A stretch of DNA of 64,000 bases from an uncultured Chitinophagaceae bacterium (lineage in GTDB: Bacteria > Bacteroidota > Bacteroidia > Chitinophagales > Chitinophagaceae), in the NCBI GenBank assembly GCA_937873715.1, contig CALMYJ010000005.1:62001-126000 (forward strand), read 5' to 3'. Position numbers and translations under genes: made by a program. The notes below the pieces were generated by a model. The model was not told the DNA's origin. It searched no databases and was given only the letters and a program-made list of their open reading frames with translations. Shown here in pieces: positions 1-36,498 of this stretch (its first letter is position 1; each line of letters starts with the position of its first letter).

Positions 1-571
1 AGTGAATTTTATGATGAAATTCATTGAACTCTTGGGCATGCGTAAATTCCATTAGCTGGTCAAACCTGATTTTTGTCACTAACTCTGTCGCTTTATATGC
101 TTCAATCAGGAAATCAACGTCAAGTCCAAAGGCTTCAATTATTTTGTCTTCAAATGGCAGAAATACGGTTCTGATTTTTTCTAAATCCTGCTCTACATAA
201 CTTAAAACTCCGTTATCGAAATAGTTTCTAAAAGCCATCTCATGTATTGCGGCTTCTTCTGTATAATCTTCAAATTTCTGAATGTGGTAATGACTTCTGA
301 TTTCATTTACTTTATCAGCAAGTGCACCAAGAATTTTGGGGTTAAATTCAAATGATTCAGTTCCTCTTTTTTCTGCGAAGGCGTTGAGAGCAATCAGGTA
401 GAGAAAATCTTTGAGCTTAGATTTGAATTTGTTCAATTCAATGTCATCTCCATCTTCCGGCCTGCGCTTAATAAAGTAAGCAAAAAAGCCAGCAAAGCTT
501 TCAGGGTCATATTTGCTTACTTCACTAATTAAATCATCAATTTTATTCTCCAGTTTTTCATTCCTAATCAT
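1..571 (-). CDS. Unrecognised protein downstream of jetD (3' end cut by window)
   Basis: An open minus-strand frame starts with ATG at 571 and shows no stop down to position 1, so about 190 residues are visible and the C-terminus lies outside the window. The start is 10 nt after the jetD stop, so it is probably cotranscribed with the Wadjet genes. The protein is charged and probably helical, without signal peptide or membrane segment. I see no catalytic motif and do not recognise a family. It is not one of the four standard Wadjet components. It could be an accessory subunit, an unrelated cargo gene, or a second defence gene. The reading frame is well supported; the function is unknown. Confidence 0.7.
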   Translation of the reverse strand, partial: MIRNEKLENKIDDLISEVSKYDPESFAGFFAYFIKRRPEDGDDIELNKFKSKLKDFLYLIALNAFAEKRGTESFEFNPKILGALADKVNEIRSHYHIQKFEDYTEEAAIHEMAFRNYFDNGVLSYVEQDLEKIRTVFLPFEDKIIEAFGLDVDFLIEAYKATELVTKIRFDQLMEFTHAQEFNEFHHKIH

Positions 572-581
572 CTCGCAGGAT

Positions 582-1724
582 TCAGTTTAAGATTGAATTG
601 AGTTGAAGTGAAATGTAAGAATTAGTAATGCGCTCTTGCTCTAATCGTTTACTGTTATTTTGTAAAAAATTGTACAGTTTTGATTCATCAGCATCGAGTT
701 TCTCTAAGGATAGTTTCCGGTAAGTGGAGGAAACGGAGAATTGGTTAAATTGATTGTAAGTTTTTTCATCCATTAAAAAACTTTTTGCATCAGGGTAATA
801 CTGCCGGATAATATTCAGCATTTCAAACCCGGCGGCATCGAGGTCAAACCAGCAATACAAATCAGTATTCTCAAGCCAGGGAATTTGTTTACTTACTCTG
901 CTCTTGAACCCCTCACCAAAAATGGCAATAGCGTTTTTAACTTTTGGAAAAGAAAGGAAACAGGCTTTATTTTCAATAATGAATACTCTTTGAGGTTTCC
1001 AGCTTAGTGATGCAGAATCGTCTATTGTAAGTGCCAATTCATCAAAGCCTATAACAGGTTTTAGGTCCTCATCCAATATTCGTATTTGCGTATAAACATT
1101 TGGTCTCTTAATATAGTACCGGTCAAGAAAATCAGCCGCATTTGGGTCAAACCACCCTGGGGGCAAAATAATGTCGAGAAGCCTTTTCAAAGCAGCCAAA
1201 TTATTTTCAATAAATTTAGAATCTACTTCGATAGGAAGTTCTCTCAGGTATAAATTATGTGGCGGTCTGTTGTCTTTGAAATACTTGCAAACTTTTATTA
1301 ACTCCAGTATACTTTCCGATTGTGATAAAAGGAAAGATGCATTATTCTTTGCCCAATCAGCCAACTCAGGAAACTCATCAATTAGTAGCCGAAGGGATTG
1401 CTGAATATTAGTATAGTCTTTTTCTTTTTTAGTGAAATAAAAGAAGTCCTCAGATGTTTCAAAATAGATTTTAGCAGGTAGTTTTTGTTTTGTCCCCTCA
1501 ATGATTTTATCCCTCCACTCAACACTGTAACCTTTCCCTTTTACCTCTTTTGAATGCTGGTATAAAGGTACAATGGCAGCTTTAAGTTCATTAAAATTTG
1601 TGCCTGACAGCTTTTTGTTTGCAGGTAAAGACAACGGAAAAATATTCTGCTCATTCAAAATTGCTGTAATAACTTTATTAAACAGCTTTTCGGATTTTTC
1701 TAAAAGTTCTTTTGGCGTTATCAT
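582..1724 (-). CDS. jetD: Wadjet nuclease subunit JetD (DUF3322/DUF2220, Toprim)
   Basis: 380 residues. The N-terminal half fits the DUF3322 arm and the C-terminal half the DUF2220 Toprim-like domain. Visible acidic residues are E251 (IIENK) and the DLD pair D294/D296 in WFDLDAAGF, which match the metal-binding Toprim core. In characterised Wadjet systems JetD is the nuclease that cuts closed-circular plasmid DNA after the JetABC loop extruder has sized it. The start overlaps the jetC stop by 4 nt (ATGA), which suggests translational coupling. Length is normal for the family and nothing appears truncated. The assignment rests on gene order plus these motifs. Confidence 0.9.
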   Translation of the reverse strand: MITPKELLEKSEKLFNKVITAILNEQNIFPLSLPANKKLSGTNFNELKAAIVPLYQHSKEVKGKGYSVEWRDKIIEGTKQKLPAKIYFETSEDFFYFTKKEKDYTNIQQSLRLLIDEFPELADWAKNNASFLLSQSESILELIKVCKYFKDNRPPHNLYLRELPIEVDSKFIENNLAALKRLLDIILPPGWFDPNAADFLDRYYIKRPNVYTQIRILDEDLKPVIGFDELALTIDDSASLSWKPQRVFIIENKACFLSFPKVKNAIAIFGEGFKSRVSKQIPWLENTDLYCWFDLDAAGFEMLNIIRQYYPDAKSFLMDEKTYNQFNQFSVSSTYRKLSLEKLDADESKLYNFLQNNSKRLEQERITNSYISLQLNSILN

Positions 1725-4700
1725 TCTCTTGTTTCGGCTAACTGTTTAAAGCTTTCTTTTTTCTCATAATACTGTTCCATAGTAAGATTATATAAAACAG
1801 AACTTTTCTTATTTTTTATCTCTACAAAATGAACAGCATTAATATACGGCTCTGCAATATTGATTTTATCAAGTGGCGTAACCACCAAAATCTGCAGATT
1901 AAGCTGTGCACAGAATTCCATTAAGAACTGACTTTTCTCAGGATCTAATTTGCTGAAGGCTTCATCCACAGTTATAAACCGGAGGCTTTTGTGCTGCTTG
2001 CCAACCTGGAAAATGCCAAACTGGTGAGCTATTGCAGCTCCCAAAATAGCATAAGTAAATTGAGCTTTTTGGCCGCCAGAATAGCTGGCTGTATTGTCGT
2101 GGTATTGTCCGGCTTTATTGTCAACAGCAGAATATTCTCTTGCGCTGAATACAAGCCAGTTTCTTACATCAGTTACCTTTCTACGCCAGCCTTCTTCTTT
2201 TTGCAATTCAGTGATTAGTTCTTTTATCTTATTGAATACTTCTAACCTATATGCTTCATCATTTTTTTGTTTTTCAAAATCAAGTGCGTTAGGAATGGCT
2301 GTGTTCAATTGACCCCTGAATATATTTATCTCATTTTCTCCTCTTAACTGTCGGCATTCCAGTTGCAAATAAGTATCTGGATGCCGGTTGAAGGTGATCT
2401 TCTTTAAAGGCACATTCAATTCTTCAATCATATCCTCAATTTTGTTCAGTTCATTATTGAGCCATGCCCTGTAACTGGTGAGTGCATCGAGCATACTCTT
2501 GTCCATATAATCCCTGAACCTTCGCTTATGTTCAACAAGTCTTTGCGTTTGTATTGTTTTGTAAAGATCTTCCAAATCATCAAGACCGGAAAGGTCTGCC
2601 TTGATGTTCATAACATCACCGCTCCAATTCGCAAATTCATTTGTGATCTTTTCACCCGGGTTTATAAAAGCTGCAATCAGCCCGGTAGTTTCCAATTCAA
2701 GTTTGCTGACCGCATTTCCTGCTGTTTTCTGTTTCCCTTTCAGTTTCACAGCAGCCTGTATCCGCATGTTGTCAAACTGTTCTAACGTACTAATATCAGA
2801 TAGTGTAATTTCTGCATCATTCAGAAATTCAGTAATAGCTTGTTCACCTGACTCTTTCAATTCTTCATAATTGATTTTTAGTTTGCGCAGGTTCTTGTCA
2901 TTATATTCACCATCCAGCTTACTGATTTTTGTGATTAAAGCATCCCGTTTCTTATTCTCATCCTGCAATTCTTTTTCAACTTCTTTCAGTTGGTTAACGA
3001 TGGTTTCATAGGCATCCGATGATTTTTTCAGGTCCTGAACCTGTCTGTTTAGGGCGGTTATTTTTTCCGCATGTTGAGTCCAGTTTATATCGTCGAAATT
3101 CTTTAGTTGTAAAAGATTGGATAATGTTTGGACTTTAGTTTGAAGAGAAACGATAGACGGGTTAAGCTCTTTAATTTTATTTGCCAGTTCGGTGTGAAGT
3201 TTTTCCTGGTTATATTTTTCTTGCTGCAAGTAGTGAACTGTTGCTTTATTATCCCAGCCCAATCTGTACTTTGATTTATTCCATCTTCCCGGCCTGTCAT
3301 CTTTTTCATGACGATTAACATTCCGGAGAAGGCCATTTGAAGTAATGGCTTTAGGAGAGCCGTAGAACACATCTAAATCATCCGTACAATAATAGTTAAA
3401 TCGGTCCAATAAAAATGTTTCAAGCCAATTTTGATAAACAGAATCTTTTAATTCTATCTTGTTTATCATATCGTCATCTCCTGTGGGCCAACGATGCAGG
3501 CTGTTAGAAGGTTTCCGTTCAATTTTATGATATACAATTTTTGTTTGCATATCGTTGTTATATATAAACTGGTTTACAGCTTTACTGAATTTCTCGGGAA
3601 CTAAAAGTTGCATTGAAAAGTTATGCAACAATTTCTCAATTGAATCCTCCCATTTCTGTTCGGTTGATTTCACTTTGATTAGTTCCCCAACAAACGGTAT
3701 TTCATCTTCAGTTGTTTCAAGAATGCTTATCAATCTTGCCCTGGCATTAATTAAATCATCAGGAATACGGTTTTTCCTTGAAAGCAGAGAAGTGATTTGT
3801 TTTTGGAGGTTTTCAATTTTGCTTGCTACACTTTCCTGCTCGATTTTTAACCTTAGCTTTTGTTCTGCAAGTTTTTCCGCTTCGGCAGGTAATGTCTTGT
3901 TTAATTCAAGTATTTTACTGTAGTTATTTTTGAAGATAGGTGCATCAACATCAGTATCAAGATTTAACTCACTACAGTACTTAATATAGCGGGCATTTTC
4001 TGCACTTTTATTATTTCTCTTTTCAGTTTCACTATCTATGTCTTTATTCAGTAATGAAATCTGGCTGTCGATGTTCAATGCTGCTTTTTGTGCAATAAGC
4101 TGTCCCTTTTCTTTGTCAAGTTTTCCTACAGATTCTGTAATTGTGTCTTTATCTTTTTTAGCAATTTCAATATCAAGTTCAAGACGCTCTACTTCTTTTT
4201 CAAGTAATCCATACTCAATCTTGCCCAAATAGAATGGCATTTGTTCCTCCACAAAATCAAGTCTTTCTTTTTTGTCTTTTAGCTCTGTTAACGTCTGCTT
4301 ATTTTTTATTACAGGGGTGAGTAATTCAAGTTGCTTTTCGTCTTTTACAATTTTTTTGTGGCTATCCAGCAAATCGTGATAATGAGTATATAGGTTTTTA
4401 AATTGTTCTTCGGCATCTGATTCTTCTAACATTTCCTGCCTTATAAAATTTGTCAGGTCACCAAGAACTTTAATCCCTACAGTCTGGCTAAAAAGTGAAA
4501 GTGCCTTATCCCTCAGGCCGAATAATTCACTAAACCGGGCTGCATATTCTTTAAAGCTGTTATATACTTCAGTTTTGGCATATTGCTTAACCAGTTTCTT
4601 TTTCCAGTCGCCTTTGAAATCAAAATGGTCTTTACCGAAATGATCATTTATATTCAGGGGATAAGGCGATACAATAAATATTTTCTGTAAACCACCATTG

Positions 4701-5122
4701 CTAAACCAGCGTACTTGTACAAGGGTTATGGTGTGCTGTGTTCCTGAGTTTTGAAAACAGGCAAGTAATACTGAATATGGATTATCTGATTTTGTCCGCA
4801 GTTGCTCTGTCTTTGATTTTTCTTCAGCTTCGGAAAATATTTTACCATGAAAGCCCCAGAAATATGAATTTTCATCCCTTTCTTTTTTCGACTCAGCTCC
4901 TGATGACTGATTGTAAAACCTTTTATTAGTAGGTACAAGAATGGTGAGTAAAGCATCAATCAATGTTGTTTTACCACTGCCATTAGCACCAGTGAGCAGT
5001 GAAGTGCGACCATCTGGCTGCAGTTTATAGACTTTACCGTTAAATGTACCCCAGTTAAACACCTCCAGGTATCTTAACCGGTAGCCATTATCACCATTAT
5101 TATTACTGAACAGGGTTGACAT
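1721..5122 (-). CDS. jetC: Wadjet SMC-like ATPase JetC
   Basis: 1133 residues with SMC/Rad50-like layout: Walker A GANGSGKT at residues 45-52, long charged heptad-rich coiled-coil arms through the middle, the ABC signature SGGQ at about 1015, and Walker B RFITVDEA with D1053/E1054. The Walker A lysine and Walker B acidic pair are intact, so the ATPase should be active. In Wadjet it works with JetA (kleisin) and JetB as an MukBEF-like DNA loop extruder that detects small circular DNA. It overlaps jetB by 20 nt and jetD by 4 nt, so all four genes form one tight operon. Confidence 0.95.
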   Translation of the reverse strand: MSTLFSNNNGDNGYRLRYLEVFNWGTFNGKVYKLQPDGRTSLLTGANGSGKTTLIDALLTILVPTNKRFYNQSSGAESKKERDENSYFWGFHGKIFSEAEEKSKTEQLRTKSDNPYSVLLACFQNSGTQHTITLVQVRWFSNGGLQKIFIVSPYPLNINDHFGKDHFDFKGDWKKKLVKQYAKTEVYNSFKEYAARFSELFGLRDKALSLFSQTVGIKVLGDLTNFIRQEMLEESDAEEQFKNLYTHYHDLLDSHKKIVKDEKQLELLTPVIKNKQTLTELKDKKERLDFVEEQMPFYLGKIEYGLLEKEVERLELDIEIAKKDKDTITESVGKLDKEKGQLIAQKAALNIDSQISLLNKDIDSETEKRNNKSAENARYIKYCSELNLDTDVDAPIFKNNYSKILELNKTLPAEAEKLAEQKLRLKIEQESVASKIENLQKQITSLLSRKNRIPDDLINARARLISILETTEDEIPFVGELIKVKSTEQKWEDSIEKLLHNFSMQLLVPEKFSKAVNQFIYNNDMQTKIVYHKIERKPSNSLHRWPTGDDDMINKIELKDSVYQNWLETFLLDRFNYYCTDDLDVFYGSPKAITSNGLLRNVNRHEKDDRPGRWNKSKYRLGWDNKATVHYLQQEKYNQEKLHTELANKIKELNPSIVSLQTKVQTLSNLLQLKNFDDINWTQHAEKITALNRQVQDLKKSSDAYETIVNQLKEVEKELQDENKKRDALITKISKLDGEYNDKNLRKLKINYEELKESGEQAITEFLNDAEITLSDISTLEQFDNMRIQAAVKLKGKQKTAGNAVSKLELETTGLIAAFINPGEKITNEFANWSGDVMNIKADLSGLDDLEDLYKTIQTQRLVEHKRRFRDYMDKSMLDALTSYRAWLNNELNKIEDMIEELNVPLKKITFNRHPDTYLQLECRQLRGENEINIFRGQLNTAIPNALDFEKQKNDEAYRLEVFNKIKELITELQKEEGWRRKVTDVRNWLVFSAREYSAVDNKAGQYHDNTASYSGGQKAQFTYAILGAAIAHQFGIFQVGKQHKSLRFITVDEAFSKLDPEKSQFLMEFCAQLNLQILVVTPLDKINIAEPYINAVHFVEIKNKKSSVLYNLTMEQYYEKKESFKQLAETRE

Positions 5123-5696
5123 AATTACTTAGCTTATTCTTGATTTCTTCTAATTTATCATTGCTGATAAATGCTTTAATAATTCTTTTTATTTCATATT
5201 GATTATTGTCTTTGTTGGCAACATCTTCACGGTTTAATTTCAGTATGCCAATATTCAGCAAGCTGGTGATTGGTTTTGATAAATCTTTCCAAAGCTTACT
5301 TTTATTGTTGTGCTCTTTGTAAAACAATTCAATGCGTTCTTTAATTTCTTTTTGCGTTAAATAAAACTTTCTGCCATCACTTTTCACATCATTTTCTTCC
5401 AGGCCTTCTCTTAGAATTACTGCAAGCAATGTTGCTTCGTAATTCAAAGATTGTTTCTTCATAAGGCGTGGTAATGGGTTATCATCATTCTCATCTGCTT
5501 CCGGCTGTAATACCCTTGCAAATCCATCCTGTTCGGAGATGATAAGTTCCATTCCTATTTTACGAAAATATTCCTGTATGGCCGACTGCCAGGCAGATAA
5601 TTCCCTCCAGATGTTTTTATCATCCACATATACCGGTCCCTGTAGAAGTTTTATGATAACCGCAGCAAATGGGGCTCTTGAAATTTTAGTTTCCAT
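5103..5696 (-). CDS. jetB: Wadjet subunit JetB (DUF4194)
   Basis: 197 residues, matching the size and position of DUF4194 JetB proteins, the MukE-like KITE (winged-helix) subunit that binds the kleisin JetA. It starts 5 nt after the jetA stop and overlaps the jetC start by 20 nt. The composition is that of a soluble helical protein without membrane segments or catalytic motif. The identification is mainly by context, between a recognisable DUF3375 protein and the SMC-like ATPase. The ATG at 5696 fits the tight spacing to jetA. Confidence 0.88.
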   Translation of the reverse strand: METKISRAPFAAVIIKLLQGPVYVDDKNIWRELSAWQSAIQEYFRKIGMELIISEQDGFARVLQPEADENDDNPLPRLMKKQSLNYEATLLAVILREGLEENDVKSDGRKFYLTQKEIKERIELFYKEHNNKSKLWKDLSKPITSLLNIGILKLNREDVANKDNNQYEIKRIIKAFISNDKLEEIKNKLSNYVNPVQ

Positions 5697-5701
5697 ATTT
5701 A

Positions 5702-7162
5702 TTAAGTTGCCAGTTTAGTATAAATAACCATTGGTACGTTTATTTTTCTATCACCAACTAAAATTGGTTCTTTAGCTTCTTCAAGTATGATATGGTGCGA
5801 CTCTGAAGTGGCTATCGAAAAATAACCAACAATTTCACTTAATCCATTTTCAATTCCATAGGTGTCAACAATCTCTTTTAATGTTACCTGGCTTTTCCCT
5901 TCAAGCATTTCATCTATTCTTCTTAGCAGCTTTTTTCTGTCAATCGTAAACTGGTCAAATAATATTTTTAAATCCGGGTTTGTATCATCTTCACTGCCGT
6001 CCGGGAATAAAATTCCGGTAATCATATCTTTTTCCTCACCGGGTTCCCATCTGTCAAAAAGATTAATGTTAGGTTCATCTTCTATAACAAGAAAATCGTC
6101 TTCCTTTATTTTCGTATCAATTAATGAATAGGCTATTTGCCGAATGTCACCAATCAGTTCCATTGCCCTGCGTCTTTCCAGTAAATTTTTTTCTGATAAA
6201 ACCCTGCTCAATTTTTCGCTTAGCTTCCTGTTTGAATCAATTACCCTTCGTCCTGATACATGCAGGTATCTCTTCAAATGTTTTAAGAACCGGTCATTAT
6301 TATAATCAATGTTTTGTTCGTTTAAGAGTTGATACAGTTTTTCAGTTAACTGAGAAAATTCCTGTTGCCTTCTTTCATCCATCAAAAACTCCCAAAAGGC
6401 TTTAAAGCTTTTGCCCTGTGGCTTCTGGTCAATTTCATCAAGGGCATCCAGGGCGAATACCAGCAAAGTTCCTTTTGCGATATCCTTTTCAGTGTACTTC
6501 CGTTGAATATCTTTTCGTATTTGTTCAAAATTCTGTTCTACTTCACTAAAATCTGCAAGCAGTTCTCTTGCCATTTTATTTAAATCATAGAATTGTTCTT
6601 TTATTTCTGTTTCATCAAATACAGATGGTTTTTTGCCTGACTTCAGCAGGTTTATTTCGTTTTCAATTTCCCATTTTTTATTCTGAAGTTCTTCAATTCT
6701 TGCTTCTGCATCTTCATTTGTCTGCTCAATCATTTTTTGAAGCTTAAAAAAAATATCCCTGAACCGGCTGTTGGTGCCAACATGGTCCCTGCGTTCCAAA
6801 TCTGTCAGCCATCTTAATGCTTTAATTGTATCAGGTGTTAATTCATGAAGGTCTTCACCATCATCGTTCGGATATTTAGAAAGGAACCCACTGTTGCTCC
6901 ATTTTTCAATATACTGAGCTGCTCTTATTGAAAAATCATCGAACAAAGTACCGGCTTCAAGTTCTTCATCTTTTTCTTCATAAGAGAGTTCTTCCATATA
7001 ACCTTCCAGCTTGCTTCGCAACTCACTATTTGAAATGGTAGTGATATTAGCATTTGAGAATACTTTCTGGAAAAAGGAAATAATAAAGGGGGCATTTTTT
7101 GCCCTTAAAAGCAGTAGCGGTTTTGCTGTTTTAAACTGTAAAAGTATTTCCTCAAAGGTCAT
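5702..7162 (-). CDS. jetA: Wadjet kleisin-like subunit JetA (DUF3375)
   Basis: 486 residues, the usual length of DUF3375 proteins. JetA is the MukF-like kleisin that closes the ring of the JetC ATPase. A coiled-coil stretch at about residues 145-225 and acidic linkers are visible, with no signal peptide. It is the first core gene of the operon and lies 55 nt downstream of a RadC-like gene, so the promoter may be upstream of radC or in that 55-nt gap. No frameshift or truncation is evident. The family call comes from overall sequence character and the four-gene order typical of type I Wadjet. Confidence 0.9.
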   Translation of the reverse strand: MTFEEILLQFKTAKPLLLLRAKNAPFIISFFQKVFSNANITTISNSELRSKLEGYMEELSYEEKDEELEAGTLFDDFSIRAAQYIEKWSNSGFLSKYPNDDGEDLHELTPDTIKALRWLTDLERRDHVGTNSRFRDIFFKLQKMIEQTNEDAEARIEELQNKKWEIENEINLLKSGKKPSVFDETEIKEQFYDLNKMARELLADFSEVEQNFEQIRKDIQRKYTEKDIAKGTLLVFALDALDEIDQKPQGKSFKAFWEFLMDERRQQEFSQLTEKLYQLLNEQNIDYNNDRFLKHLKRYLHVSGRRVIDSNRKLSEKLSRVLSEKNLLERRRAMELIGDIRQIAYSLIDTKIKEDDFLVIEDEPNINLFDRWEPGEEKDMITGILFPDGSEDDTNPDLKILFDQFTIDRKKLLRRIDEMLEGKSQVTLKEIVDTYGIENGLSEIVGYFSIATSESHHIILEEAKEPILVGDRKINVPMVIYTKLAT

Positions 7163-7217
7163 ACCTCTAAAATAAGATATTTAGATAAAGAAATGAAAAA
7201 GAATGATTTAGAATGGG

Positions 7218-7691
7218 TTATAACAGCCCCTCATCCGCAAAGCTGTAATAGCCCTCGGTAGTAATGATAATGTGCTCTATCACCCTTATATCATGGTAAG
7301 CGGCGGCAGTTTTTATCTTTTGGGTTAGTTCTTCATCAGCCTTGCTGGGTTTGAGATTTCCAGAAGGATGATTGTGTGATAAAATTATACTTACTGCAAG
7401 ACATTTGATGGCAGCAGCCAATATCAATCTTGGGTCGGCTACTGTACCTGTAATACCTCCTGATGAGGCGTCATAAACTCCCGTTACCCTGTTTGCCCTG
7501 TTCAGAAATACTACCTTAAATTCTTCCAGCATTTCAATTTTGTTTTCATCCCAAACCTGTTTGAGCACATTATAAATATCTCTTGAATCTCTAATCAATG
7601 GCCTTTCAGAAGCTTTTACTTTTGTTTTGTACACCAATTCTACTTCTGCCACTCTTGTCCATTCCGGAAATTGCATTGTCATCTGTTCCAT
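7218..7691 (-). CDS. radC: RadC-like JAB/MPN domain protein
   Basis: 157 residues, shorter than chromosomal RadC (about 220-230) because the N-terminal helix-hairpin-helix region is absent. The JAB metal site is visible as HNHPSGNLKPSKADE (H-x-H with downstream S and D) at about residues 105-120. Short RadC-like proteins are common on plasmids and conjugative elements, often beside SSB, DUF932 and anti-restriction genes. Their biochemical role is unproven and the name does not imply DNA repair. It heads the minus-strand run that continues into jetA, so it may be part of the defence transcript or simply element baggage. Confidence 0.88.
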   Translation of the reverse strand: MEQMTMQFPEWTRVAEVELVYKTKVKASERPLIRDSRDIYNVLKQVWDENKIEMLEEFKVVFLNRANRVTGVYDASSGGITGTVADPRLILAAAIKCLAVSIILSHNHPSGNLKPSKADEELTQKIKTAAAYHDIRVIEHIIITTEGYYSFADEGLL

Positions 7692-7905
7692 AACTTAACT
7701 TTTTACTTGTTTTAAAAATTAATTACAGAACATGCCCTGCCTTTTGGCAATAAAGGCCATGAAGCAACGGAATAAATAGTGTCTGTTGCTTTGTGGGACT
7801 ATTTTATTTTTATGCCGGAATTTCATGGCCGCTTCAGCAGCCAAAAGGCGAACTTTGTGGGAGGAATTAATACTAAAGATTACATTAAATACAAAACATG
7901 TTCTT

Positions 7906-9237
7906 ATGAGAGAAGAATTACACTCCAGCATTGGCTTATATTCTCCAAGCTTTCTGAAAATGCATATTGATGTGAATGAATATTTGGATGATATTTTCGA
8001 AATTTCTCCACTCGCATCCGCTGCATATATTCATGAGTATGTTCATTTCTTACAGGATATTACTACCGTTTATGGTCAAAAAAACATTATTTCAGTGGTT
8101 GATTATATCAAATCAGTAAATTTTAATCAACGCAATGCTGAAGAACGGATTTTATCAATACCCTATATCCCAGAGGAGAAAAGAGATCCTGGCGCTTACT
8201 ATAATGGAGAATTACAAAAAATACATATCGGCACTATAAGAGGAGACGGTATTAATACCATATCAGAAATCAATAAAGAAATTGTTCAGGCCATTCTTAT
8301 TGATAAAAAAATTGATGTAGAAATAGTAAAACTGGTTGTCACAATTGGGCAACCACCCAAGGAGCATATTTACCAATTTGGTTCACATGCTATTATAGAA
8401 AGTATGGCATTTGCTATAGAGCAATCAATCTATCCAGGTATTGTTGAGGAGCCAAATGATTTTTGCTATCGTGCGGCTTCTGAAATTATTCATTTTTGTT
8501 ATCCAGAATTAATGCGTGATCCATTAAATGTTATAGCGTTGTGCGATGCATCCCTTATGTATTTTAACCCTGCTGCGATATTCTATAATACGTTGCTTAA
8601 AATGAAAGATATCGGATATATACCTACCTCAGCCTTTGACATTTATCGGTTTGTTCATTCGCATATAGAAATCGAATTTTGGGGACTAACCCAAATTGAT
8701 CAAATTTTTAATAATCATACACTTACCGCACTTTCTCAACTAAACGATTATTTTACTACTGATTTGTTTGCCCCAAATCGAGTGTGGATCGATTACACTT
8801 TCCGGAAAGCCAATGAGATTAGAAGTAAGGATTGGGGCTTTTTTATTAAACTGGCATCGGACGGACCCATTAAAAATAATCCTACGTTCAAAAAAATATT
8901 TGCTTCAATCGGAATACCCTTAGTTACTAATCGTACAGGAAATGCTGTATTTGCGTCACCTGTAGAAGATGAGACGGTAGTGCGACCTGATATTTTGTGG
9001 GCGATTAACCAGATTTATAATATTTATATAAATTCAGCAAAATCACAAATCCGGAGATGCGGTATGGAAGATTGGTGCAGGGCATCCTGCCTGAATAGTA
9101 ACACCGAAGATTATACTGATTACCGGTGCATTGAAAGTCCGTGGGAAAGAGTAAAAGATAAAGACAATCTTTGTGTATTTTCCCAAATCTGGAGAACGTG
9201 GGGGATGGAAAATGAAATACCAACTATTAAACGATAA
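7906..9237 (+). CDS. Putative HExxH metallopeptidase, first gene of pair
   Basis: 443 residues from ATG 7906; an upstream TTG at 7786 would add 40 residues of unlikely composition. It has HEYVH at residues 43-47, a metallopeptidase-type zinc site, with a possible third ligand E165 in HAIIESMAF. The C-terminus has a Cys cluster (CGMEDWCRASC, then RC about 18 residues on) that could bind a metal. There is no signal peptide or membrane helix, so it should be cytoplasmic. The stop is 11 nt before the next gene, whose product also has HExxH. I do not recognise a named family. Divergent from Wadjet and next to a Lit-like gene, a defence role is plausible but inferred. Confidence 0.75.
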   Translation: MREELHSSIGLYSPSFLKMHIDVNEYLDDIFEISPLASAAYIHEYVHFLQDITTVYGQKNIISVVDYIKSVNFNQRNAEERILSIPYIPEEKRDPGAYYNGELQKIHIGTIRGDGINTISEINKEIVQAILIDKKIDVEIVKLVVTIGQPPKEHIYQFGSHAIIESMAFAIEQSIYPGIVEEPNDFCYRAASEIIHFCYPELMRDPLNVIALCDASLMYFNPAAIFYNTLLKMKDIGYIPTSAFDIYRFVHSHIEIEFWGLTQIDQIFNNHTLTALSQLNDYFTTDLFAPNRVWIDYTFRKANEIRSKDWGFFIKLASDGPIKNNPTFKKIFASIGIPLVTNRTGNAVFASPVEDETVVRPDILWAINQIYNIYINSAKSQIRRCGMEDWCRASCLNSNTEDYTDYRCIESPWERVKDKDNLCVFSQIWRTWGMENEIPTIKR

Positions 9238-9248
9238 AAAAGGGAATT

Positions 9249-10241
9249 ATGCCAACTTACAAAGAAGTCATTGTCGAGCTGAAATCAAAACCTATTAGCG
9301 CCAGATATGGCGACTTTTATGATTTCGAAGGATTTCCTTTGGAAGAAGAATTTCAGAAATTCTTTACGTTCGGACAAGGATTTTTAGACAGGGATGATTT
9401 GGGATATGACATCAAGCCAGCGAGATTATATTTTAATACAGATACACGTATCAATGGCCTTGCGTATAAATCAAAAACGGATTATTTCCTGATCGAGCTA
9501 TTCAAAGGAGCTTTCTATCAGTTATACGATTATTATACTAGCCGGGAAGATGTTTTTCATCAGCCTCAATTTAAAAAATATAAGGATTTGATGGATAAAA
9601 AGGATTTAAGTTGTTCTTATATCCTTTTCCAATTTGTCATGTTGTACATTTTTTATCACGAGGTCGGGCATTTAATACAGCGGACGGGCGACGACCCCGA
9701 TTATCTGGAGTTTATCACAGGCCCCGTACTTGGTAATTCATCAAAGGAACGGCATATGAGAGAACATGATGCCGATTGGTTTGCGGCAAGCCAAATGGCG
9801 TTTCATGTTATTGAGTCCGTCAAAACCGGAACACCCGAAAGTCCCGTTATTGATCCGGATGAACTGGCAACGGCGACTGAATTGGCTCTGGCTGGCATTT
9901 ACACCTATTATATCCGGCAAGCTGAAGGGAGCCCTGAACTTTATTTTTCAGAAAAATCACATCCACACCCCGCCGTAAGAATCTGCTATCTGATAATATA
10001 TCTGCTGGATACCTTACCAGCAAATGTGTCTGCTCAAATAAATCAAAAGGTAATACTAACAAATGCCATTCGGCTGGCTGAAGCTTTGTTGATCGAACCA
10101 GGGAAAAATATTGTAGAAGAATTCAGTGTGGGTATAATGAAAAGGATTGATGAAATTGAAACCTATATTAGTAAAATTCGGCACGAAAGTGAATCGTATC
10201 CACATCTGGCGCTTAAAAAAATCAAGAACGTGAGTTCCTGA
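9249..10241 (+). CDS. Lit-like (peptidase U49-type) HExxH zinc metallopeptidase
   Basis: 330 residues, cytoplasmic. The zinc site is HEVGH (137-141) followed by REHDADW, with E172 as likely third ligand, and a downstream HPHPAVR at 238-244. From memory, E. coli phage-exclusion protease Lit has the same order: HEISH, then READSHATKW, then HPAAYER. Lit cleaves EF-Tu when triggered by a phage T4 peptide. M48-type peptidases also have HExxH / ExxxD / HPxxxR, so a generic M48-like enzyme is the alternative. It follows the previous HExxH gene by 11 nt, so the two should be cotranslated. A 12-bp-stem hairpin lies just downstream. Confidence 0.72.
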   Translation: MPTYKEVIVELKSKPISARYGDFYDFEGFPLEEEFQKFFTFGQGFLDRDDLGYDIKPARLYFNTDTRINGLAYKSKTDYFLIELFKGAFYQLYDYYTSREDVFHQPQFKKYKDLMDKKDLSCSYILFQFVMLYIFYHEVGHLIQRTGDDPDYLEFITGPVLGNSSKERHMREHDADWFAASQMAFHVIESVKTGTPESPVIDPDELATATELALAGIYTYYIRQAEGSPELYFSEKSHPHPAVRICYLIIYLLDTLPANVSAQINQKVILTNAIRLAEALLIEPGKNIVEEFSVGIMKRIDEIETYISKIRHESESYPHLALKKIKNVSS

Positions 10242-10264
10242 TTAAAATTCATTTTCAGAAACCC

Positions 10265-10314
10265 AAGCTGCCCCGCCATTTTCCAACATCTGCCACAATG
10301 TAGCGGGGCAGCTT
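10265..10314. terminator. Hairpin between convergent genes
   Basis: Perfect 12-bp GC-rich arms (AAGCTGCCCCGC at 10265-10276 and its complement at 10303-10314) enclose a 26-nt loop. It sits between the convergent ends of the Lit-like gene and the DUF932 gene. There is no long T-tract on either side, so it may act as a stable 3' stem rather than a textbook intrinsic terminator. Confidence 0.6.
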
Positions 10315-10362
10315 TCCAAACAAAAAAAGGAGCATTTTGCAATGCCCCATTTTATCAAATCA

Positions 10363-11397
10363 TCAATTATAAATCCCCACCATTTCACCCTTTACATAAT
10401 CCTCACAAAGCTGAAAGGCTTTTTGTGTTTTTAACTGTGCTGTGCCGCCATATAGCAACGATTTCATTTTCGCTTCATCATCTTTATATGTTCTTACATT
10501 TTGAAAGTAACCTGTTATAGCATTGTATGCGCCAAACACTGTTCCTTTAGTGGCTTCTGTTTGCTGTGTTGGGCTGGCAAAATTGTATTCATACACCGCA
10601 TCACACATATTTTTAAAACAGGTGCTTAGTTCATCCAGTTCACCGTTTTGGATACTCTGCAACACTTCTTTGTTTGGAACCATTGCCATTTGTATCAATT
10701 TCTGCACTTCCTTATCAGTGATGCGAACCTTTGCCCATTGGTTAAAGATGCCGTCTAACTGCTGGCTTAGCTGGCTGGAGATACCTAACACTTTGTGGGC
10801 TTCTTCTAACCGTTCTTTTACATTAGCTGTGTGGCGGATTTTAATAGAATTGGTATGATTTCTTAAAGCGGCATTCAACGTATTGTTGCAAACAATCCTT
10901 ATGGGAGTGAATGCAGCTACAATACTTCCAAACCCATCATGTGAAGTTGTAAGGAACAGATACTTTTCAATACAATCTGTATTGGCTACTTTGATATAGC
11001 CGGGCAGTTTTGCTGTTATAAAAATTTTTTCTCCTTTGCCCAATGCTCCGGCGGTTTCGTATTGTATGCCCTCGCCCCCAACAATAGCATCAAAGAAACT
11101 GAACGCATCAATATTTTGCACCACTTCATAATCTTTGCCCAACCGGTCGCCTAATATAGCATTAGTATCTGGGCGGTAAGTATAGAAGGATGTTTTTGAT
11201 ATTACCTCTGTTCCATTATCGAGCTTGTGTGCATTGGGTCTTTTCAAGACTTCAAAATCAAGCCCTGCAAATTGCAATGCTTCTTTACTTGTTGGATAGT
11301 CTTGCACTATCTGCCCCAAACCATGCCATGCTTTTTCTTTTACGCTGAAAAAACTGTGCTGCTGTGTTTGTTCGTTGAAATTGATATTGTGTGCCAT
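10363..11397 (-). CDS. DUF932 / phage-plasmid-like protein (TIGR03299 type)
   Basis: 344 residues from ATG 11397, chosen because the sequence beginning MAHNINF is the usual DUF932 N-terminus and the 30 codons upstream look non-native. Conserved features include AWHGLG near the N-terminus and VVAAFTPIRIVCNNTL in the middle. Proteins of this family are found on phages, plasmids and integrative elements; the function is not established. It follows the SSB gene by 70 nt on the same strand. Together with SSB and RadC it marks the stretch as mobile-element backbone rather than chromosome. Confidence 0.9.
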   Translation of the reverse strand: MAHNINFNEQTQQHSFFSVKEKAWHGLGQIVQDYPTSKEALQFAGLDFEVLKRPNAHKLDNGTEVISKTSFYTYRPDTNAILGDRLGKDYEVVQNIDAFSFFDAIVGGEGIQYETAGALGKGEKIFITAKLPGYIKVANTDCIEKYLFLTTSHDGFGSIVAAFTPIRIVCNNTLNAALRNHTNSIKIRHTANVKERLEEAHKVLGISSQLSQQLDGIFNQWAKVRITDKEVQKLIQMAMVPNKEVLQSIQNGELDELSTCFKNMCDAVYEYNFASPTQQTEATKGTVFGAYNAITGYFQNVRTYKDDEAKMKSLLYGGTAQLKTQKAFQLCEDYVKGEMVGIYN

Positions 11398-11467
11398 AGT
11401 TATAAATTTTTTGTTTGATGAAATAAAATGCAGCATCACACATTTGTTATGATGCTGCCCTGATTGT

Positions 11468-11863
11468 TTAAAATGGTAAATCGTCACTAACTTCTGCCAT
11501 AGCTGCTACTGGTGCGATACTAACAGGTGCGGTAACTTCTGCATATACTTTGTTACCACCGCCATGCAGTTTAACTTTGCTTGCATTGAATGTAAGGCTG
11601 GCTTTCACTTCGCCTTCCTTGTTTGTCCAGGCGTTTGCACCAATGCGGCCTGCACACTCTACTAAAGTGCCTTTGGTTAAATACGGAGCTACACCCGGAT
11701 TAATCCAGTATGAGCAATTAATGTAAGTAACCAGTTTTGTTACTTCATTGCTGCCTTTTGTTTTGTAAGTGTCATTAATAGCAATAGAAAAGTTCACCAC
11801 TTTTTTCCCTGCTTTGGTTTCGCTAATGGTTGCGTCTGCTGTTACTCGTCCGATGATTTCCAT
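11468..11863 (-). CDS. ssb: Single-stranded DNA-binding protein
   Basis: 131 residues with an OB fold: N-terminal MEIIGRVTADATI, the central YINCSYW strand and a GRIGANAW region. The C-terminus ends DDLPF, the acidic tail that recruits partner proteins in bacterial SSBs. It is shorter than a chromosomal SSB, typical of element-borne copies that protect single strands during conjugal transfer or replication. It is the first gene of a two-gene minus-strand unit with DUF932. The gap upstream is long and rich in inverted repeats. Confidence 0.92.
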   Translation of the reverse strand: MEIIGRVTADATISETKAGKKVVNFSIAINDTYKTKGSNEVTKLVTYINCSYWINPGVAPYLTKGTLVECAGRIGANAWTNKEGEVKASLTFNASKVKLHGGGNKVYAEVTAPVSIAPVAAMAEVSDDLPF

Positions 11864-12347
11864 AACTGAAATTTTAAATGTTTAGAAAATGATTATTACA
11901 TGAAGTCAGCTTCGCTTCATTCATTTACCCTTAGCGACCAGCCATTAGGACTGCGGCGGAGAAACAAGGTTTTTCAAATAAAATACTACCCCGTGTGGGC
12001 AGCTATTGAAATATCTGGTGGAGATTTTTTTGAAAACCTCTGGCGATTGACGGCTCTTTACCATGTGGGAACAAGACCTTGTTTCGCACATAGCAGGACA
12101 ATAATTTTGCGGCAGGGTTAGTTGAATGAGCAGATTGAAAATTATTGTTGCAGTGTCTTTTTTACAATATCTTTTCCTTGAAGTTTGGGGAATTGTGTTG
12201 GCTGAGGAACGAGGCCATCTCAATTCCCAATATCATTATCCGGCGCAATGGTTTCGCCGTTTCGTTATGACGAAGGAGTAACGATTAATATAAACGGTGG
12301 AAGGATTGCGCCGGGTCTTTTGCTATTTTCATGAATTAATAAAAAAA
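11864..12347. other. 484-bp gap with nested long-range inverted repeats
   Basis: No gene is clearly supported here. Two long-range 10-bp perfect inverted repeats are present: GAAACAAGGT at 11961-11970 with ACCTTGTTTC at 12076-12085, and CCGGCGCAAT at 12240-12249 with ATTGCGCCGG at 12305-12314. A small hairpin, TTCGT/ACGAA, lies at 12261-12274 inside the second. The ssb promoter must be near the left side. A 73-codon plus-strand frame at 11900-12121 occupies the first repeat; its composition (Arg, His and Trp-rich) is not convincing. The region could encode a structured RNA or hold transfer or replication sites. Confidence 0.45.
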
Positions 12348-28188: not shown

Positions 28189-30459
28189 TTATTTTACTTT
28201 TAAAAGACTTGCATTAATAGCTACCACAACTGTACTAACACTCATCAATACAGCGCCTGCAGCAGGGCTTAATAGGATTCCCATTTTGTACAATACTCCT
28301 GCCGCCAAAGGCAAAGCCACTACATTGTAACCCGTTGCCCAAATTAAATTCTGAATCATCTTTCTGTAAGTGGCTTTGCCAAACTGAATCAGTGAAACAA
28401 CATCTTTGGGGTTGCTGTTCACCAACACAATCCCCGCTGTTTCGGCGGCTATATCAGAACCTGAACCAACTGCTATTCCTACATTGGCCTGTGCTAATGC
28501 AGGTGCATCATTTACTCCATCGCCTGTCATGGCAACATATTCGCCTTTATCCTGTAATTCCTTAATTTTCTCTAATTTTTGATGCGGTAATACTTCCGCA
28601 ATAAAGCTGTCCATCCCTAATCTTTCACTTACACCTTTCGCTACTGTTGCATTATCACCCGTTAACAAAATAGCCTTAATATTATTTTGGTGCAATGTTT
28701 TGATGGCATCGTATGACTCTGGCCTTATTTCATCTGCCAGAGCAATTGAACCGGCTATATCATCATCTATCAAAACGAATACAAGGGTTTCTTCTGCCTT
28801 TACCATATCATCTTTTGTGAGAAAAGCAAACTTTTCTTTTAGATAACCGGGACTTACTACCATTACATCTTTCCTGTCTATAATTCCGGTAATCCCTTTT
28901 CCTGTAATCGCTTCAAATCCGGTTGCATGGGGAAGAGCCAGATTCAATTCTTTTGCTTTATCTACAATTCCAGTTGCAATGGGATGTTCAGAATTTTGCT
29001 CCAATGCAGCAGCATATTGTAAAATCTGCTCCGCAGTATATTTGTCGTTGTGTGTTACATACCTCACCACCTGAAATTTACCTACGGTAAGCGTTCCGGT
29101 TTTATCAAATACAAGTGTGGTTATTCTCCTTGAGTTTTCAAAGGCCGTTCTGTTTTTTATCAGGAGACCATGTTTTGCAGATAAAGCAGTTGATTTAGCG
29201 ACAACCAACGGAACTGCCAATCCTAAAGCATGAGGACAACAAATAACTATGACGGTTACCATTCTTTCAATGGAAAATGCCAAATCCTTTCCTGATAAAT
29301 ACCATACAAGAAATGTGGTAATACCTGCCACAATAGCTATCAGCGTCAACCATCTTGCTGCTGTATCTGCAATCAGTTGTGTTTTGGATTTTGATTTCTG
29401 TGCATCCTGTACCAGTTTTATCACCTGGGATAGATAAGAATCTTTTGCTCCATGAGCAACTGCCACTTTTATTGCACCATTACCGTTGATAGAACCGGCA
29501 ATTACTTTATCCCCCTTGCTTTTTCCAACAGGTTTTGATTCACCGGTAAGCATACTTTCATTAAGATAACTTTCCCCTTCTGCGATGATACCATCAGCTG
29601 CAATTTTCTCACCTGGCTTTATCAGAATTGTATCGCCTTCTTTAAGCGATTCTGTTTTTACATCCGTTACTTTATCTCCATTCACTAAATGTGCATCATC
29701 AGGCATTAGCTGAACCAGTAATTCCAGTTCCCTCGAAGCACCGGCTACCGATTTCATTTCTATCCAATGCCCCAATAGCATGATAAGGATAAGTGTTGCT
29801 AACTCCCAGAAAAAATCCATCCCCTGCAATCCAAAGACGGTTGCCACGCTGTAGATATACGCCGCTGAAATGGCAAACCCCACGAGTGTCATCATGCCGG
29901 GATTTTTTGCCCTCATTTCACCAACCAATCCTTTCAGGAAAGGCCAACCTCCGTAAAAGAAAACAACAGATGATAAAAAGAACAGCACATATTTTGAACC
30001 CGGGAAACTGAAATGAATATTTAACCAGTGTTGTATCATTTCTGATAACAACATAACAGGTACTGTGAGAATTAATACCACATAAAATCTCTTCTTGAAA
30101 TCGGCAATGCCCGATGTGTGAGCTTCATGTCCGCTATGTGCTCCCGGTTTTTTTAAAGGAACTAAAGTCATTCCGCACAAGGGACATTTACCTGGCACAT
30201 CCTGAACTATTTGCGGATGCATGGGGCAGGTGTATTTGGTAAATCCCTGTTGTGCTGTATTGATATTTACAACAGGTGCATGTTGCTGTTCATGAGCTTC
30301 CTGCTTTTGTGTTTTATGTTCTGCATGGTGATGATGTGAATGGCTGTTATCTGATTCCTTGGTAACAGGAATAAGTTTCATTCCACATTTGGGGCAATCA
30401 CCCGGTTTATCCTGAATGATTTCAGGATGCATCGGACAGGTATATTGCTGCTGTTGCAT
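28189..30459 (-). CDS. CopB-type copper P1B ATPase with two metal-binding repeats
   Basis: 756 residues from ATG 30459; the longer frame begins with TTG and overlaps the preceding gene. Two YHS-like heavy-metal-binding repeats (YTCPMHPE...CPKCGM and YTCPMHPQ...CPLCGM) at about 7-28 and 77-98 flank a His-rich segment (38-60). The membrane motif is CPH (408-410), characteristic of P1B-3 CopB-like pumps, rather than CPC. TGES at 305-308, DKTGT at 452-456 and GDGVNDAP are intact. It exports copper and probably silver. It starts 7 nt after the DUF2911 stop. Confidence 0.93.
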   Translation of the reverse strand: MQQQQYTCPMHPEIIQDKPGDCPKCGMKLIPVTKESDNSHSHHHHAEHKTQKQEAHEQQHAPVVNINTAQQGFTKYTCPMHPQIVQDVPGKCPLCGMTLVPLKKPGAHSGHEAHTSGIADFKKRFYVVLILTVPVMLLSEMIQHWLNIHFSFPGSKYVLFFLSSVVFFYGGWPFLKGLVGEMRAKNPGMMTLVGFAISAAYIYSVATVFGLQGMDFFWELATLILIMLLGHWIEMKSVAGASRELELLVQLMPDDAHLVNGDKVTDVKTESLKEGDTILIKPGEKIAADGIIAEGESYLNESMLTGESKPVGKSKGDKVIAGSINGNGAIKVAVAHGAKDSYLSQVIKLVQDAQKSKSKTQLIADTAARWLTLIAIVAGITTFLVWYLSGKDLAFSIERMVTVIVICCPHALGLAVPLVVAKSTALSAKHGLLIKNRTAFENSRRITTLVFDKTGTLTVGKFQVVRYVTHNDKYTAEQILQYAAALEQNSEHPIATGIVDKAKELNLALPHATGFEAITGKGITGIIDRKDVMVVSPGYLKEKFAFLTKDDMVKAEETLVFVLIDDDIAGSIALADEIRPESYDAIKTLHQNNIKAILLTGDNATVAKGVSERLGMDSFIAEVLPHQKLEKIKELQDKGEYVAMTGDGVNDAPALAQANVGIAVGSGSDIAAETAGIVLVNSNPKDVVSLIQFGKATYRKMIQNLIWATGYNVVALPLAAGVLYKMGILLSPAAGAVLMSVSTVVVAINASLLKVK

Positions 30460-30466
30460 ACGCTGA

Positions 30467-31033
30467 TTATTTAATGACGAAAGGAAGTTCAATTTTTATC
30501 TTCTCCCATGCTACTGATATTTTTCCCTTATTGCTGCTATTCGTTTCAATAAAATACTGCAGCCTTTCCGTATGTGCATTTTTTCCGGGTTTTACTTTCA
30601 GTCTTATCACATCCTCTTTCTCATCATACTCTGTCGCCAAATGCTGCTTCCATTGTTTGTTGATGATAATCGTCCATTCATTTTTTCCCGGTATGGTAAA
30701 GAGAGCATATTTACCGGCAGGTATTTCCTTGCCATTAACAATAAATGCTTTGGGCATTTCAAGTGTAGTAGCATCATGAGCCCCGGTTACCCATACTTCA
30801 TCATAAGGAACAAGACCACCCCAGATAATTCTTTTACGAACACCTGGTGAATGGTAATTGATTTTAATGCTATCACCATTTACAATAGCATAAGCCATTG
30901 ATTTAATACTTTTCTTAGAAGTATCTTTAACCAGATTGGGATTATAGCATACTTCATCAGTCTTTTGTGCTACCGAGTTAAGTGAACTAATTAAAATAAT
31001 AGCTGATAATACAAGTTTCAAAATGGTATTCAT
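30467..31033 (-). CDS. DUF2911 secreted protein
   Basis: 188 residues with a signal peptide (LVLSAIILISSLNSVAQ). The core matches DUF2911: YHSPGVRKRIIWGGLVPYDEVWVTGAHDATTLE, then GKEIPAGKYALFTIPGKNEWTIIINK. The family is common in Bacteroidota, periplasmic or secreted, and of unknown function. It lies between the second CusB-like adaptor and the copper ATPase with short gaps (20 and 7 nt), so it belongs to the copper operon. Confidence 0.88.
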   Translation of the reverse strand: MNTILKLVLSAIILISSLNSVAQKTDEVCYNPNLVKDTSKKSIKSMAYAIVNGDSIKINYHSPGVRKRIIWGGLVPYDEVWVTGAHDATTLEMPKAFIVNGKEIPAGKYALFTIPGKNEWTIIINKQWKQHLATEYDEKEDVIRLKVKPGKNAHTERLQYFIETNSSNKGKISVAWEKIKIELPFVIK

Positions 31034-35244: not shown

Positions 35245-36498
35245 TTATTTTTTCTCAATAATTCTTTCAATAGTTACCTGCAAGCGAAGCGACTGATTGA
35301 GCAACTCTATGTATTCAAGTTGTTTCATGTTCAATCTTTCCCAGGCATCATAGAGCATAAATAATTCCTCTGTGTTTTGCTCATAACCCAATTGCATGGT
35401 TTTATAATTATTCTTCAATGCTGGAATAATATTTTCTTCATACAGCTTTAATTGTTTTTTCTTTAGTTCCAGTTCATTTCTCATACCATAAGCCATGCCG
35501 CTGTATTCGTTCACCATCATTTCTTTTTGCGACTGAATGGCATAGCTTTTCCATTTTAGGCTTTCGATATTGGCCTTGTTCATCTTTGATGACCATTTCG
35601 CCATTGGAATCCGCACCATGCCCATGATGGTGTATTGCATAGGCTGGCCTCCAAAACCAAACATATTATCGTAACGGATTCCGAATTGAGGTTTGAGTGC
35701 TGCTTTTTCTGTTTCCTGTTTCAACCTTGTAAGATTAATTTCCTGGTCAAGTGATTTTAAATCGCTCCGGTTAGTGTAAAAAAGAGTGCTGTCGAATACA
35801 ATGGCTGAATAATCATTTAACTGATACGTGGTGTCAATATCAAAATCAATCATGGCATTTCTTCCCATCAGTGCATTCAACCGGATTCTTTTCTCCCGGA
35901 TGTCGTTCTCAAACATCAACTGCATATTCTTAACATCACCCAATGCAGCTTTCGCTTTATAGTAAGCACTGATTTTCTCCAATCCGTTTTTATAACGTAT
36001 CTCCGCATTCTTAATCATGAAATCAAGAATCTTTTCATTCTCTGCCAGTATCACCAGTTTCTTTTCCAGGATTATCCATTCGTAATAAAACTGTTTTGCA
36101 TCATTGATTAATTCGTTCAGCGTGGCGTTTTTCTTTTCCTTCTCCACTGATGACATCGCCTTCATGTAGGTTTCATCTGCATCCAGTTTTTTTCTGTTGG
36201 GAAACATCTGTTCACCGGACACCATCACGGAACCCATGCCCGGAATATCACCTTCTCTATGCCAGAGCCGAACATCATAGGGTGTCATAAACTGGCCGAT
36301 GCCAACCTGCGGCGGCATCCAGCTTCTTGCACCTTTGGCCGCTTCATCCATTGAGCGGATTTCATTGTCATACATTTTCACTACCGGGTGTGAAGCTTTG
36401 ATGCTGTCAATAACAGCATCAAGCTTTAGCGTTTGCGAACGGCTGCTGAAAGCAACCATTATTGCAAACAATGTTGGGAGTATTTTATTCTTTAACAT
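35245..36498 (-). CDS. TolC-family outer-membrane efflux channel (CusC-like)
   Basis: 417 residues with a signal peptide (LPTLFAIMVAFSSRSQ) and two TolC repeats rich in long helices (NELINDAKQFYYEWIILEKK; EYSGMAYGMRNELELKKKQL). It is the outer channel for the split CusA pump, whose second part ends just upstream with a 14-nt overlap. It has more methionines than the TolC domain fused to CzcA, in keeping with a Cu/Ag route. Confidence 0.88.
   Translation of the reverse strand: MLKNKILPTLFAIMVAFSSRSQTLKLDAVIDSIKASHPVVKMYDNEIRSMDEAAKGARSWMPPQVGIGQFMTPYDVRLWHREGDIPGMGSVMVSGEQMFPNRKKLDADETYMKAMSSVEKEKKNATLNELINDAKQFYYEWIILEKKLVILAENEKILDFMIKNAEIRYKNGLEKISAYYKAKAALGDVKNMQLMFENDIREKRIRLNALMGRNAMIDFDIDTTYQLNDYSAIVFDSTLFYTNRSDLKSLDQEINLTRLKQETEKAALKPQFGIRYDNMFGFGGQPMQYTIMGMVRIPMAKWSSKMNKANIESLKWKSYAIQSQKEMMVNEYSGMAYGMRNELELKKKQLKLYEENIIPALKNNYKTMQLGYEQNTEELFMLYDAWERLNMKQLEYIELLNQSLRLQVTIERIIEKK

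Follow-up and report, generated by a model that had tools for sequence, protein, structure and literature searches.

What do two adjacent genes, each encoding a predicted cytoplasmic protein with an HExxH zinc site, do beside a Wadjet operon? The question is raised by a stretch of 64,000 nucleotides (the window) from an uncultured Chitinophagaceae bacterium (contig CALMYJ010000005.1, positions 62,001 to 126,000), for which an earlier note had proposed a paired-protease defence system with one Lit-like member. The two open reading frames, their 11-nt spacing on the plus strand and the motifs HEYVH and HEVGH are all present in the sequence as described, and the two genes are referred to here as P1 and P2:

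7906..9237, plus strand, P1, HExxH protein of 443 amino acids (aa), unclassified (open reading frame list, sequence and alignment of relatives)
9249..10241, plus strand, P2, M48/Lit-like HExxH protein of 330 aa (open reading frame list, sequence and motif comparison)

We give an even chance to the reading that P1 and P2 are cargo of a mobile element, namely two unrelated, predicted stand-alone zinc proteases, likely abortive-infection effectors, which are stacked next to each other and do not form an obligate two-part system. Four observations underlie it: the zinc-site residues are conserved, P1 lies among known defence genes that differ between loci, P2 alone is absent from an otherwise collinear locus, and relatives of P2 stand beside OLD-like ATPase or kinase/PP2C genes. 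Stand-alone effectors fit this picture of unchanging protease sites, genes that occur singly and defence neighbours that differ between loci.

The start of P1 was placed at the ATG at 7906 and not at the upstream TTG at 7786 based on the aligned N-termini of its relatives, and HEYVH corresponds to residues 43-47 (window 8032-8046). In an alignment of 118 of the 120 relatives listed (two shorter than 390 aa were dropped), H43, E44, H47, Q50, G159, E165, Y188 and G336 as well as C385, C391, C408, W413 and C423 are invariant, i.e. the motif is conserved beyond chance. An HExxH motif together with a conserved downstream glutamate (E165, 118/118) is a gluzincin-type pattern, and this position suggests E165 as the third zinc ligand; four of the invariant residues are cysteines of the C-terminus (C385, C391, C408 and C423). 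The family comprises at least 182 sequence clusters from various bacteria, mostly Bacteroidota, with copies on one Hymenobacter plasmid and five viral contigs. It had been called unrecognised, and indeed none of the protein and profile libraries tried names it; fold searches in the PDB and in viral models returned no informative match, and the P1 profile matched PDB sequences at chance level only. A relationship of P1 and P2 as paralogues was ruled out, the two HExxH motifs not being aligned by hhalign (Prob 1.4). A Bacteroidota promoter pattern matched the window six times (6.1 expected), with no match near P1. That P1 represents a new family of stand-alone defence metalloproteases whose fold differs from all solved structures, whose four C-terminal cysteines would form an invasion-sensing metal site and which in some genomes would act in a suicide cascade with an exchangeable P2, is a proposal we regard as doubtful.

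In P2, HEVGH spans residues 137-141 (window 9657-9671) and is followed by E172xxxD176 and H238Px4R244 (H238-P-H-P-A-V-R244). Of 47 relatives, the 40 that reach 300 aa all keep H137, E138, H141, Q144, E172, D176, H238, P239, H240, P241 and R244. The likeness to Lit extends to the order of the motifs, including the one given earlier as HPAxxR, which is present with a different spacing (HPx4R, as at Lit H232); it does not extend to membership of the Lit family. The Lit model (NCBIfam PRK09672) gave 16.4 bits (E 0.004) over residues 122-183 only, against a cut-off of 274 bits, and hhalign with Lit of E. coli and with the Lit relative L126 aligned the HExxH helix alone (Prob 1.2 for Lit), which rules out P2 as a true Lit. 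L126 was the one Lit relative in 98 family genomes; none of 14 control genomes matched, and Lit was not found in phage records. Among 19 members of the P2 family, the Lit model matched four at E <=0.1 (best 5.8e-7) and the YpfJ-type model NF050010 matched eight; the top score of the latter (2.5e-112) is probably that of a single outlier, L103, and the P2 of the window had no match to it at E 1. In the suggested comparison with M48 and U49, the best fold match of the mostly helical P2 model is with M48 peptidases (BepA and the zinc peptidase Q74D82) and is weak; P2 has no Pfam match at E 1, and NCBIfam gave Lit only. The P2 profile found no match in PDB sequences or in viral contigs, and tblastn found no P2 in plasmids. 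The predicted fold of the uncharacterised phage protein A0A8S5NTQ9 resembles P2 (Foldseek E 1e-7, TM 0.64), and phages may therefore carry P2 relatives.

The genes around the pair were compared with two related loci, L001 and L002:

582..1724, minus strand, Wadjet JetD (PADLOC)
1721..5122, minus strand, Wadjet JetC (PADLOC)
5103..5696, minus strand, Wadjet JetB (PADLOC)
5702..7162, minus strand, Wadjet JetA (PADLOC)
7218..7691, minus strand, RadC-domain gene, divergent neighbour of P1 (Pfam PF04002)
9222..10258, no strand, segment with the P2 gene, lacking in L001 and L002 although the flanks align (alignment)
10265..10314, no strand, G+C-rich hairpin, likely terminator of the P1/P2 unit (fold -24.6 kcal/mol, z -5.4)
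10363..11487, minus strand, DUF932 gene, neighbour kept in L001 and L002 (Pfam PF06067)
11468..11863, minus strand, presumably an SSB-like gene, kept in L001 and L002 (named from its sequence)

The pair is divergent from a complete Wadjet operon, as had been noted (JetABCD, 582-7162), which lies beyond the RadC gene; the gap between the latter and P1 is 214 bp. The window aligns with L001 over 14-9221 (Wadjet, RadC, P1) and again over 10259-11897, at 76-78%, and since both flanks align, the P2 segment is what L001 is missing. P2 is somewhat richer in G+C (0.395 vs 0.354). A similar hairpin sequence lies directly 3' of P1 in L001 and L002 and 3' of P2 in the window, which argues that P2 either entered the transcription unit of P1 or dropped out of it; P1 and P2 would be co-expressed here, because P2 sits between P1 and the hairpin that elsewhere follows P1 directly. 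L002 is also without P2, and it differs at the place where the window and L001 have Wadjet: three other long genes, flanked by RadC and a relaxase-like gene (L002:2320-9191), suggest an exchangeable cargo slot. On this contig, the DNA immediately preceding the window carries genes which we take to be integrase-, coupling-protein-, relaxase- and mobilisation-like, the last two also matched to genes of L002, and P1 and P2 therefore look like cargo of a mobilisable element. The same upstream part holds a gene for a 1019-aa PHP-plus-SMC-like ATPase (L151:3818-6877, judged from sequence), possibly a defence gene. Further into the window, metal-resistance-type genes (28189-30492 and 36485-38410) match a Haliscomenobacter plasmid (76% for a copper P-type ATPase and 90% for an RND/TolC-type gene), which may mean that defence and metal resistance are carried together.

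Elsewhere, the neighbours of P1 are richer in defence genes than controls, in agreement with the defence island suspected earlier: in two matched protein sets and at E 1e-10, 88 PADLOC models (models, not loci) hit the 103 case proteins and 17 hit the 106 control proteins. Among the 25 case matches listed, 15 are Jet models fitting one Wadjet locus (L104, which corresponds to L001) and the other ten are Upx, QatA, LmuA, LmuB (two), AbiEi, AbiEii, PifA and PDC-S05 (two); those listed for the controls consist mainly of PDC-M candidates, ZorB, DolB and a subtilase. A further tally took 85 of 175 neighbour proteins, close to P1 at 45 of 51 other loci; here 174 models passed E 1e-15, and the 25 matches listed include IetA, AriA, restriction-modification genes, pAgo, HamA/HamB, NsnA/NsnB and AbiLi. 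A conserved partner gene of P1 was looked for in the neighbourhood comparison and none was seen. Wadjet itself is not that partner: relatives of JetABCD occur at only two of 76 other P1 loci (L001 and L004), which rules out P1 as a Wadjet accessory.

The neighbours of P2 vary as well, and no conserved partner gene was seen in their comparison. A tally over 74 of the 84 neighbour proteins gave 63 PADLOC models, many of them kinase models. At one locus (L137:7779-10426) a P2-type protease gene comes immediately after a gene for an AAA_15 (OLD-like) ATPase, a candidate two-gene ATPase-protease defence system; at another, kinase, FHA-trypsin, PP2C and P2-type protease genes form a run on one strand (L136:5110-13839).

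As stand-alone effectors, both proteins would be inactive at first, each awaiting a phage or plasmid signal that acts either through the protein's own binding site or through a partner such as an ATPase or kinase; in other genomes, partner ATPases or kinases may relay this signal to P2. Once active, the protease would cleave a protein essential to the host or the phage, much as EF-Tu is cleaved by Lit. Several points weigh against this reading. The PADLOC tallies count models, several of which can match one protein, and 15 of the 25 case matches listed stem from a single Wadjet locus; the tallies of 174 models at E 1e-15 and of 63 models for P2 stand without a control at their own thresholds. 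Five P2 loci (L096, L097, L102, L138 and L140) showed no recognised defence-like neighbour, defence islands also carry regulators and passengers, and the fold match of P2 is weak. The adjacency described next argues that P1 and P2 may cooperate.

A genuine defence system of two proteases, with one protein switching the other on or holding it back or with both required, and with frequent loss or splitting of the pair, is in our judgement unlikely. Among 394 family genomes, P1 was found in 14, P2 in nine (including G625, whose match is likely YpfJ-type as judged by eye, and G446, with a copy in two pieces) and both in two (0.32 expected, P about 0.04). In both co-occurring genomes where adjacency could be judged, P1 and P2 are neighbours; G835, which holds them on separate contigs, was left out of this count. 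The two pairs are far diverged (28% identical for P1, 26% for P2) and yet both adjacent. In the second (L100, genome G522) the genes are convergent with a 4-nt overlap, and the pair is flanked by fecR on one side and, judged from sequence, a sigma-factor-like gene on the other (L100:7663-11966), like a cassette that landed in a nutrient-uptake regulon; this genome has four paralogous fecR sites, of which two show such a sigma-factor-like gene 58 and 85 nt away and the other two gave no sigma match. The differing orientation speaks against a fixed unit, as do the closest P1 loci, which are without P2. Among 66 P1 loci (61 in genomes and five in viral contigs; this set and the set of 76 include duplicates such as L021/L100 and L046/L108, short contigs, and L061 as a fragment only), P2 is near P1 in one, and no P1 was seen in 14 of 17 P2-positive genomes. 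The conserved pair proposed earlier therefore does not recur as a unit, some link being hinted at by adjacency in the two genomes, and the clean absence of P2 from the collinear locus together with the rare co-occurrence rules out an obligate P1-P2 system; for the most part, the pair is not a unit.

The main single-gene rival, which we consider rather improbable, holds that P1 and P2 are regulatory proteases that cut a repressor or inhibitor and thereby switch on defence or transfer genes next to them, in the manner proposed for CapP-type peptidases. No conserved partner, regulator or other, was seen beside P1 or P2 (HTH genes were not profile-searched), and the neighbours change from locus to locus. 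Distinctly improbable is a service to the mobile element itself (anti-restriction, maintenance or transfer) in place of antiviral defence: RadC, DUF932, relaxase-like and integrase-like genes lie in the vicinity and P1 is also found on the Hymenobacter plasmid and the viral contigs, but elsewhere P1 adjoins defence genes without RadC (seen only at L001, L002 and L036 among the 76 loci) or DUF932 (only at L001, L002 and L051).

Protease effectors are a known kind of protein; few of them are known in bacterial immunity. Neither the P1 family nor the P2 module was found under any name in the libraries or literature searched, and no described protease pair or U49-type defence system matched in a literature coverage that excluded most subscription journals and bioRxiv. 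P1, an unnamed family among defence genes with a fully conserved zinc site, is a directly testable candidate; P2 relatives stand beside different apparent sensor genes and, if functional, would extend the Lit principle to an effector module that can be exchanged. Lit, which we take to be peptidase U49, is the textbook phage-triggered suicide metalloprotease and cuts EF-Tu between Gly59 and Ile60 when the Gol peptide is present; the set of HExxH, ExxxD and HPx4R is not specific to it. Lit is described as a latent zinc protease that cleaves EF-Tu upon T4 infection (PMC3014915). P2 shares with Lit the motif order (positions 160, 181 and 232 in Lit; 137, 172 and 238 in P2) and carriage on a mobile element (the e14 prophage of E. 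coli K-12, b1139, for Lit), whereas full-length homology is not seen. From M48 peptidases P2 differs by the missing Pfam match and by its defence-like or mobile contexts, and the YpfJ-type neutral zinc metallopeptidases share model matches with some members of its family but not with the P2 of the window. An M48-family peptidase is part of the enteropathogenic E. coli (EPEC) RptR-RMS-DarTG-M48 (RRDM) phage-defence island, where it is likewise encoded by a single gene, at one end of a functional island (PMC12255303). The arrangement at L137, where a P2 relative directly follows the AAA_15 ATPase gene, resembles PARIS/OLD-type ATPase-plus-effector defence, in contrast to which the effector would be a protease and the P2 of the window has no such ATPase beside it.
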